This document shows, in pieces, positions 28,495 through 48,229 of a DNA stretch of 48,229 nucleotides. Below the pieces are notes generated by a model. The model was given only the letters and a program-made list of their open reading frames with translations, did no database searches and was not told where the DNA came from. Position 1 is the first letter of the stretch. Every line of letters begins with the position of its first letter. The translations under genes and the position numbers were made by a program. Source of the stretch: Candidatus Hydrogenedentota bacterium (GTDB lineage: Bacteria > Hydrogenedentota > Hydrogenedentia > Hydrogenedentales > JAGMZX01); contig JAKQEQ010000107.1 in assembly GCA_029556545.1 (NCBI GenBank), forward strand, positions 1 to 48,229, read 5' to 3'.

Positions 28495-29802
28495 TCATGC
28501 CGGGCCGGGGCAGAAGCCGTCTTCGCCGTCCGGGCACGGATGGTAGCCGCCGGGAGTGTTGTAGAACTGGATGAGTCGGAGCAGTTCGGTCAACGCGATG
28601 CGCCAATCGGGAAACCGGTAGTCGCTGTCGTGGTGGCGGCAGCCTTGGTCTCCCACACCGGGGTCATAATCGTCTTCCGTGCACGGCTCGCAGTGCAGCC
28701 CGTCCGAATTGTAGAACTGAATCACCCGGAGCAATTCGTTCAGTGAAATCTCGCGGTCCGTGTCCTTGTCCGCGCTGTGGTAGTACCGTTGCGGCGCGGG
28801 TTCGCCCTCGCCTTCCCCTTCCGTAGCGGCGGGCTCATAAACCCAAACGTCGCTCAGATTCGTATTTCTATTTGCACCGGCAATAACCCAAAGTGTGTCT
28901 TGATAGACCACGGCGCTATGCCCGCTACGGCCACGCCACGGCGCCTGATCCGTAACTTGCTCCCACGTGGCGCCATCATCGGAAACCCACACATCATTCA
29001 GCGCCCGATGACCATCGTAACCGCCCAAGAGCCATAGCTTGTCCTGAAACACTACACAGGCGTGGCCGCTGCGAGGACACCATGGTGCGCCGGATGTGGC
29101 CTCAACCCACGTCTCGCCGTCTTCGCTGTACCAGACGTCGTTCAGCGGTTCAAAATCGGCAAAGTCTATCGGTTCCTCCGATGCGGTGACGCCCCCGATA
29201 ACCCATAGTCTGCCCGCAAATACTAGTCCCACACTGTCGAACCTGGGTTGCCACGGTACTGGAAATATCGCGGGAAACCAATTCGCGTCTTCGACCTTCA
29301 GTATGTCGTGCAGTAAGAACGTTGCAGACCCGTATTCGTCCCCCTCCGGTTCATAATAGTACTCGTCGATATATTGCCCGGTGAATAGCCACAACGCTCC
29401 TGCAAACGACACAGCCTTGTGCATGAGCAACCCATTGCCGTAGTACCAAAGCGATCCATTGGCGTTCCACTGGATTCCGTCGGAACTTACAAAGACGCGG
29501 TCATTCGAATAGCCCGCGCCCATAAGTACAAACGATCCAGCATGAGTGGATAACGAATATCCTGGGGATACTTTCCAAAAGCCAGGCCAGATGTATGCAG
29601 ACCGCCAGACCGTACCATCACTTAGGTAGAGGAGGCTATTGGTTCTCGCTAGCCATAGCTTGTCGCTGTGAACAAGTCCGATCTCATATGAATCTCTCGA
29701 GGGGCTCAGATTCGTATGTACTTCCTGCCACGATGCGGAAGCTGAAACAGAAACCGTTACGATGCCAATCAAACAGAAGATTGGGCTCAATATGTATCCC
29801 AT
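28495..29802 (-). CDS. secreted kelch-propeller protein with LLRxIQFYN C-terminal repeats
   Basis: This encodes 435 residues. The ATG at 29802 has GGAGG 8 bases upstream and gives a signal peptide ('YILSPIFCLIGIVTVSVSASA'). The body (about 25-335) is a kelch-type beta-propeller; clear blades are 'RFDSVGLVFAGRLWVIGG', 'RSGHACVVFQDKLWLLGGYDG' and 'RSGHSAVVYQDTLWVIAGANR', each joined by 'LNDVWYSEDGETW'-type strands. A short 'EGEGEGEP' linker follows. The last 85 residues hold two copies of an acidic helix unit ('ISLNELLRVIQFYN' and 'IALTELLRLIQFYN') separated by a cysteine-containing segment. The acidic positions before each helix recall dockerin or EF-hand loops, but the spacing differs. A closely similar tail ends the gene at the right edge of the window. 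The binding partner is unknown. Confidence 0.88.
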   Translation of the reverse strand: MGYILSPIFCLIGIVTVSVSASASWQEVHTNLSPSRDSYEIGLVHSDKLWLARTNSLLYLSDGTVWRSAYIWPGFWKVSPGYSLSTHAGSFVLMGAGYSNDRVFVSSDGIQWNANGSLWYYGNGLLMHKAVSFAGALWLFTGQYIDEYYYEPEGDEYGSATFLLHDILKVEDANWFPAIFPVPWQPRFDSVGLVFAGRLWVIGGVTASEEPIDFADFEPLNDVWYSEDGETWVEATSGAPWCPRSGHACVVFQDKLWLLGGYDGHRALNDVWVSDDGATWEQVTDQAPWRGRSGHSAVVYQDTLWVIAGANRNTNLSDVWVYEPAATEGEGEGEPAPQRYYHSADKDTDREISLNELLRVIQFYNSDGLHCEPCTEDDYDPGVGDQGCRHHDSDYRFPDWRIALTELLRLIQFYNTPGGYHPCPDGEDGFCPGPA

Positions 29803-29952
29803 TCCCGATACCTCCAAGTCTCTGCTGATCAATATTTGCGATAAAGGATCAAACAGCCCGAATTCTCATTCATCGCATTCACGAAAGCAGAGGTTTAGTT
29901 TTCAAACGGCTTCTTGCCAATTTTCTTCGTCCTGGCACCCGTATTGCAGGTC

Positions 29953-47970: not shown

Positions 47971-48229
47971 TCAGAGCCCGGGGCAGTAACCGTCCTCAGT
48001 CCCTTCAGCCGGACACGCGTGGTATCCGCCCGAATTGTAGAACTGGATCAAGCGCAGCAGTTCCGTCAACTTGATCTCCCAGTCTGGCCCGGACGGCGCG
48101 TAGTCGCTTGCATGCGGCGTGCAGGTTTGGTTGGCGCCGGGGCCGGGCGCGTAGCCGTCTTCGGTGGTCCCCGGATCATCCGCGCAATGGAAGCCGCCGG
48201 AGTTGTAGAACTGGATGACGCGCAGGAGT
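47971..48229 (-). CDS. C-terminus of a secreted protein with LLRxIQFYN repeats (partial)
   Basis: Only the last 86 codons are in the window; the 5' part lies beyond the right edge. Reading the minus strand to the TGA at 47971 gives two units, 'LLRVIQFYNSGGFHC' and 'LTELLRLIQFYNSGGYHACP'. Between them is 'EDGYAPGPGANQTCTPHASD', and the end is 'EDGYCPGL'. It is clearly homologous to the tail of the kelch protein at 28495-29802, with the same two cysteine-containing linkers. The body of the protein cannot be judged from here. Confidence 0.85.
   Translation of the reverse strand, partial: LLRVIQFYNSGGFHCADDPGTTEDGYAPGPGANQTCTPHASDYAPSGPDWEIKLTELLRLIQFYNSGGYHACPAEGTEDGYCPGL

Follow-up and report, generated by a model that had tools for sequence, protein, structure and literature searches.

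A dockerin-like tail on secreted proteins of Hydrogenedentota and its putative docking to cohesins

Introduction

The genome of an uncultured bacterium, Candidatus Hydrogenedentota (assembly GCA_029556545.1), encodes a kelch protein that ends in two closely similar units, and the question raised by this locus is what such an ending does and to what it might attach. The window analyzed here is the whole stretch of 48,229 nucleotides from contig JAKQEQ010000107.1. A first-pass annotation made from its sequence alone had described the ending as a paired LLRxIQFYN domain that recalls dockerins in layout and differs from them in sequence, and had proposed a cell-surface or cohesin-like tag. We refer to this domain as the tail.

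The kelch-tail gene and the limits of the tail

The open reading frame lies on the minus strand and spans 28495–29832. The ATG at 29802 is the likely start and gives a protein of 435 amino acids (28495–29802), while the TTG at 29832 would give 445. A likely signal peptide, MGYILSPIFCLIGIVTVSVSASAS, was recognized by a hydrophobicity rule at 29731–29802 (minus strand), the end of this stretch being approximate. It is followed by a kelch beta-propeller region with approximate limits of 28822–29730 (minus strand), in which two kelch families scored above their cut-offs (PF24681, 1.8e-21, best stretch P0001 138–354; PF01344, 2.2e-17). The EGEGEGEP linker noted in the first-pass annotation is present at 28798–28821 on the same strand, directly ahead of the tail. 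Judging from its sequence, the gene product is probably a secreted protein. PADLOC returned no family for the whole kelch-tail protein, nor for the cohesin-bearing adaptor described below.

The tail is a tandem repeat of about 95 residues, each half consisting of an acidic loop, a helix with ELLRxIQFYN and a hairpin that carries TEDG (in the kelch protein, the first copy reads TEDD). The pairing of the LLRxIQFYN units is real, as the two halves aligned with a score of 85.5, whereas 2000 shuffles never exceeded 47.0. On the basis of the sequence and an AlphaFold2 model, repeat 1 (HSADKDTDREISLNELLRVIQFYN...) occupies 28651–28779 of the minus strand and comprises an EF-hand-type loop, a helix and a beta-hairpin. 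Loop 1, DKDTDREISLNE, at 28735–28770, has the canonical 12-residue EF-hand spacing (n, n+2, n+4, n+11), and helix 1, LNELLRVIQFY, was assigned by DSSP of the model to 28711–28743. Repeat 2 (HHDSDYRFPDWRIALTELLRLIQFYN...), at 28498–28635 (minus strand), contains an atypical loop, a helix and a beta-hairpin, and finishes with EDGFCPGPA. Its loop, DYRFPDWRIALTE (28585–28623), has 13 residues, from the first D to E (n to n+12), and its helix, LTELLRLIQFYN, was placed by DSSP at 28558–28593. The lower limit given to the tail in the first-pass annotation was right, whereas the upper limit of 28760 was wrong: it falls within the first loop, which starts at 28770. A second tail of the window, at 47974–48228 on the minus strand, makes up the C-terminal 85 residues of a protein that the contig end truncates.

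Predicted fold and conservation

An AlphaFold2 model was computed from alignment A1, which holds 128 of 194 tails after removal of those outside 86–108 residues and of near-duplicates at ≥82% identity. The model (pLDDT 96.8, pTM 0.86) shows two helices, at 14–24 and 64–75, each followed by a hairpin, and no transmembrane stretch. Loop, Arg/Gln and Cys frequencies were counted on 230 distinct tails after removal of duplicate loci. Position 1 of loop 1 was D in 217/217 and position 12 was E in 219/220, and the loop measured 12 residues in 199 of the 217 tails with D...E ends; positions 3 and 5 were N or D in most copies of the window's own genome. The length of loop 2 varied more across 225 tails (13 residues in 144, 15 in 58 and 14 in 17). 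Near-invariant Arg and Gln occur on both helices: in helix 2, Arg was kept in 227/227 and Gln in 223/227 distinct tails, and in helix 1, Arg was kept in 217/220. Since these fixed polar residues are kept across phyla, they suggest one conserved binding face on the helices.

The tail of the window has five cysteines, C31, C34, C48, C83 and C91. Profile positions 30 and 47 (window C31 and C48) were both cysteine in 210 tails, both without it in 7 and discordant in 3, and the corresponding numbers for positions 81 and 91 (window C83 and C91) were 148, 30 and 3, all of these pair counts being inflated by kinship among tails. That a cysteine was almost never found without its mate argues for two disulphides. 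The first proposed bond joins C31 (28690–28692) to C48 (28639–28641) and thus spans 28639–28692 of the minus strand; the second joins C83 (28534–28536) to C91 (28510–28512) across the terminal hairpin, at 28510–28536. In the own genome, the second pair was mostly kept in C-terminal copies and mostly missing from internal ones.

Comparison with dockerins and EF-hands

The tail matched no Pfam or NCBIfam family. Dockerin_1 (PF00404) reached only 19 of the 128 aligned copies at E≤1 (best 0.0089), all short of its cut-off and the window copy not among them, which agrees with the earlier statement that the sequence differs from ordinary dockerins. EF-hand_1 scored 11.9 bits on the window copy against a cut-off of 25.4, and EF-hand_6 matched 92/128 copies at E≤1 (best 9.7e-6). 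When the tail was aligned profile to profile with the dockerins of these genomes, one loop-helix was joined over 21–23 columns at a probability of 57–68%. Sequence relatives in the PDB began at an E-value of 0.087 (plant GIGANTEA) and were mostly EF-hand proteins from 0.22 onward; we took them as chance or generic EF-hand similarity. Relatedness between cohesin and tail sequences was rejected at a probability of 0.2%.

A Foldseek search of the PDB returned dockerins in 8 of 35 rows at E≤10, with no row at E≤0.001, and in a second structural comparison all eight entries listed at Z≥2 were dockerins, with weak Z scores of 3.3–3.8 over 54–66 residues. The sequence and the model both contain the two tandem EF-hand-type loop-helix repeats that mark a dockerin, loop 2 being longer than canonical. 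The ligand residues for calcium are present in loop 1 (n, n+2, n+4, n+11), and loop 2 is atypical. The dockerin-like layout noticed at first pass was thus borne out, through these fold matches, the canonical first loop and the association and fusion with cohesins described below. The label of a cohesin-like tag was not: the tag looks like the dockerin half of the pair, with a cohesin as its candidate partner.

The dockerin fold has three helices in about 60–70 residues, and Asp closes its loops. Type I dockerins (PF00404) and the tail have in common two tandem calcium-type loop-helix repeats with internal symmetry, and both usually close a secreted protein and are preceded by a linker. The tail differs in its length of about 95 residues, in the Glu that closes its loops, in its conserved ELLRxIQFYN helices, in the hairpin and Cys pair after each helix, and in lying beyond the reach of the Dockerin_1 profile. 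We therefore rejected the ordinary dockerin as a family assignment, given the failure of that profile, and kept it as a working analogy: on present evidence the tail would work like a dockerin, yet outside the dockerin family as its profile defines it. Group 1 dockerins of Ruminococcus flavefaciens, as far as the available text of PMC5429695 describes them, have loop 1 ligands at n, n+2, n+4 and n+11 and an atypical loop 2 with n, n+6 and n+12, a span equal to the 13-residue loop 2 of the tail. According to the same text, these dockerins have no internal symmetry and only one binding mode; the tail, unlike them, is strongly symmetric, which would fit a dual binding mode. Searches of a literature collection for LLRVIQFYN, for shorter forms of the motif and for secreted C-terminal proteins of Hydrogenedentota found no description of the tail.

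Many C-terminal domains of secreted proteins bind polysaccharide or act as stability caps. The conserved aromatics of the tail (F, Y and W) would suit binding to a surface or matrix polysaccharide; a related reading is a calcium-dependent cap without a specific partner. We regard both as very unlikely, as a partnerless cap accounts neither for the fusions to cohesins nor for the almost unvarying Arg and Gln of the two helices, and the fold matches of the tail included no carbohydrate-binding fold, which is weak evidence.

Carriers and distribution of the tail

The first-pass annotation had suggested that a profile of the tail be built and its carriers listed. In the own genome (6.1 Mb, 195 contigs, 96% complete), the search with the whole tail gave 111 matches at E≤1. 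They were resolved to 104 places from stretches covering 108 of the 111 matches, a count that leaves out matches on contigs C122, C39 and C96. Of the 104 tails, 90 finish no more than 13 residues before the stop codon, 12 stand internally or at the N-terminus, one is followed by 29 residues and one has an undecidable position; some sit directly after a signal peptide. Among 76 C-terminal tails, 60 have an EGEGE linker no more than 60 residues upstream. A simple rule detected a signal-peptide-like start in 75 of 81 carriers whose upstream part lies in the contig, and fired on 11 of 68 internal control stretches, so the carriers look exported and not cytoplasmic. Pfam searches of the parts before the tail (78 scanned) found gingipain-type C25 and M14 peptidases, Ig, PKD, P-domain, LRR, FG-GAP, beta-helix, kelch and CHRD domains. 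Because the carriers are diverse and mostly signal-peptide-like, the tail appears to be a general tag of secreted proteins. For 23 of the 104 tails, the upstream part of the reading frame is missing because the available stretch ends there, in most cases at the end of a contig, and the window, too, ends inside a tail (48228). The assembly was probably broken by these repeated sequences, the tails and their EG linkers.

A tag of this kind might also serve as a C-terminal sorting signal recognized by a dedicated machinery for secretion or attachment, like the type 9 secretion domain or PEP-CTERM. The proximity of 90/104 copies to the stop codon and a diversity of carriers such as general sorting signals have would both be expected of one. 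However, the position is not strictly C-terminal, given the 12 N-terminal or internal copies and the N-terminal copies seen in the Desulfobacterales order too, and the modeled tail is a rigid folded domain without a transmembrane stretch that is fused to cohesins. We consider a sorting signal quite unlikely.

Across the phylum, the profile found the tail in 41 of 68 Hydrogenedentota genomes, with 1 to at least 75 copies each, the counts near 75 in the richest genomes being lower bounds. A scan of 84,980 species genomes gave 78 tail loci, mostly in Hydrogenedentota records or metagenome bins; the others came from some Desulfobacterales, one Desulfatirhabdium, one Omnitrophota and one Kiritimatiellae record. 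In the order of Desulfobacterales bacterium HSG2, 8 of 146 sampled genomes carried the tail. The Kiritimatiellae record (L185) holds tail pieces of the own-genome type in a genome without cohesin matches (G072, an outlying record in the cohesin search), and is possibly a misplaced Hydrogenedentota contig. A trypsin-like serine protease of about 850 residues with a tail recurs in tail-poor genomes (L171, L165, L152).

Cohesin-tail proteins and the C33 gene cluster

Genomes with few tails repeatedly encode a small protein that consists of a signal peptide, one domain of about 140 residues and a tail. The N-domains of ten such proteins were compared with the cohesin family PF00963: two scored above the cut-off (L101 and L214), L241 fell just below it, and seven gave no match. 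One of these seven, modeled by AlphaFold2 with a pLDDT of 94.5, matched a cohesin in Foldseek at 2.9e-10 and aligned in the second comparison with Z 17.9 and rmsd 2.1 over 134 residues, where all 50 of the 50 matches listed were cohesins. The N-domain of the cohesin-tail proteins is thus a cohesin by profile or by fold. In all, 28 genomes from two phyla encode a protein that combines a cohesin with a tail. Among the 41 tail-positive Hydrogenedentota genomes, 24 yielded cohesin-tail proteins, a count that did not cover G022, G025, G032, G035, G037, G043 and G058, and four genomes of the Desulfobacterales sample (G069, G070, G185 and G214) also have a cohesin and a tail in one protein. The cohesin loci examined in G002, G003 (reverse order only), G004, G012, G013, G014, G021, G033, G041 and G042 held no cohesin-tail protein. 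A second architecture, with the order signal peptide, tail, linker, cohesin and long region, occurs in the own genome and in three other records, and the long region of the own-genome protein contains a PKD domain.

On contig C33 of the own genome, two dockerin proteins (the smaller on the opposite strand), a cohesin-tail protein and two cohesins that end in a membrane helix follow one another. A cluster of this type, whole or partly cut, was found in eight genomes, the own genome and G040, G034, G028, G029, G030, G031 and G001; in G002 and G004, the cluster has a version without a tail. The second structure job excluded three rows of anchor cohesins because they misaligned. The layout of anchor, adaptor and cargo is that of cellulosomes, seen here at the level of genes. 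The small dockerin proteins of the cluster (L196:6323-6874 and relatives) share a C-terminal motif near ...NAPP (HAPP in some).

We consider it somewhat probable that the tail is a new disulphide-braced dockerin-like module, with a putative role in docking secreted proteins to cohesins or to a cohesin-linked surface scaffold. The carrier would be exported by its signal peptide, and the tail would fold outside the cytoplasm through oxidative folding, with two disulphides and calcium. The conserved helix face might then plug into one conserved partner at the cell surface, most likely a cohesin, such as the membrane-anchored cohesins encoded beside the cohesin-tail gene. As an adaptor, the cohesin-tail protein would be fastened to the anchor by its tail and would use its cohesin to capture a protein with a dockerin or a tail. 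Where tails are abundant, as in the own genome, the tag may have spread to the general secretome, and peptidases and Ig/PKD, LRR, beta-helix and kelch proteins would thereby all be held at one surface scaffold.

Several known systems resemble this proposal in part. Type I dockerins likewise occur with cohesins (PF00963) and are fused to them in adaptor scaffoldins, a term defined in the available part of PMC4959524. The Planctosome, a non-cellulosomal cohesin-dockerin complex proposed for Planctomycetes (PMC6461901), shares with it an anchor, an adaptor and peptidase cargo joined by cohesin-dockerin contacts away from cellulose; it differs in being built on recognised dockerins, and the available text of that paper does not mention the tail. 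The sulfate-reducing partners of methanotrophic archaea have cohesin and dockerin adhesins, with a proposed role in aggregate formation (PMC10553843); these are likewise cohesin and dockerin proteins of sulfate-reducing bacteria, and the tail is not described in the accessible part of that source.

If the docking proposal is true, the tail adds a new class of docking module, from uncultured bacteria, to the cohesin-dockerin world, and its cargo looks proteolytic and adhesive, not cellulolytic. About 100 proteins in each genome, many without known function, would then be assigned to a single surface assembly by one short profile, and the lineage-by-lineage replacement of dockerins by such modules would become directly testable. 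The tail would also offer protein-scaffold design a compact disulphide-stabilised plug, possibly of independent specificity.

Co-occurrence with cohesins and alternative partners

In the Desulfobacterales sample, 36 of 146 genomes had any cohesin. All eight tail genomes had at least 10 cohesins, against 1 of 138 others (G187, with 11; Fisher p 2e-12, with kinship ignored). These tail genomes are large and to some degree related, and they also hold 7–31 Dockerin_1 matches. In Hydrogenedentota, a lineage cohesin profile found cohesin in 41/41 tail-positive and 22/27 tail-negative genomes (p 0.008), a result partly built in because the profile includes the cohesins of cohesin-tail proteins; with PF00963 the figures were 37/41 and 21/27 (p 0.18). 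Dockerin_1 number followed cohesin number in this phylum (rho 0.54, p 2.5e-6), and tail number showed no clear correlation with it (rho 0.22, p 0.07). G008 (98% complete) offers the clearest individual example: it encodes three tails, Dockerin_1 matches nothing there at E≤0.01, and its only cohesin is that of a cohesin-tail protein. In this genome the tails are the only dockerin-like ligands in sight, although it may hold dockerins beyond the reach of Dockerin_1.

Several observations stand against the docking proposal: tail count does not follow cohesin count in Hydrogenedentota, with seven cohesins for about 104 tails in the own genome, PF00963 is not significantly commoner in tail-positive genomes, the tail fails the Dockerin_1 profile and aligns with dockerin profiles over 21–23 columns only, and some cluster versions (G002 and G004) have no tail. 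Because ordinary dockerins accompany cohesins in tail-free as well as tail-bearing genomes, the tail may be cargo of the cohesin-dockerin system and not its ligand.

Seven tail-free Hydrogenedentota genomes (G048, G049, G063, G064, G061, G066 and G062) had 11–73 Dockerin_1 matches, and tail-rich genomes had 0–10. Mutual exclusion of tails and dockerins was not significant (genomes with at least 10 of each: 1 observed, 1.5 expected), so that a replacement of one tag by the other in Hydrogenedentota is suggestive, not significant. In a bolder reading, which we hold to be rather doubtful, the tail and its receptor would form an assembly system of an origin separate from cohesin-dockerin. Locked by disulphides, a calcium plug with a single recognition face common to all copies would have taken over the whole secretome in several Hydrogenedentota, whose relatives carry tens of ordinary dockerins instead, and crossed into Desulfobacterota.

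The tail may also dock to a partner other than cohesin. The best candidate is a beta-sandwich of about 100 residues, 'LPGW', related to NEW3/NPCBM_assoc and DUF11, which flanks internal tails and forms tandem arrays beside tail genes. Within the fetched loci, 23 ORFs contain this domain and 18 of them have a tail as well, a figure biased because the loci were chosen for holding tails; arrays adjoin tail genes in G069, G185 and G214, Pfam places the domain near NPCBM_assoc/DUF11, and the lack of a tie between tail and cohesin numbers in Hydrogenedentota would be expected with such a partner. However, few of these ORFs belong to the own genome, most own-genome tails have no LPGW in the same ORF, and fusions to cohesins occur in many more genomes. 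We judge this partner unlikely and retain cohesin as the favored one. The LPGW domain is not itself supported as a cohesin (probability 22%).

At L280, L282 and L283 (in G214, G185 and G069, respectively), tandem arrays of the NEW3/DUF11-like LPGW domain, together with a small protein that has just one such domain, are neighbors of cohesin and tail genes, and the arrays of these three Desulfobacterales-order genomes are a possible second scaffold. In the own genome, a protein of 1261 residues adjoining the cohesin cluster (L196:2433-6215; G000:C33:35932-39714, minus strand) contains many EF-hand pairs joined by EGEGE linkers, followed by an LPGW beta-sandwich and a tail.
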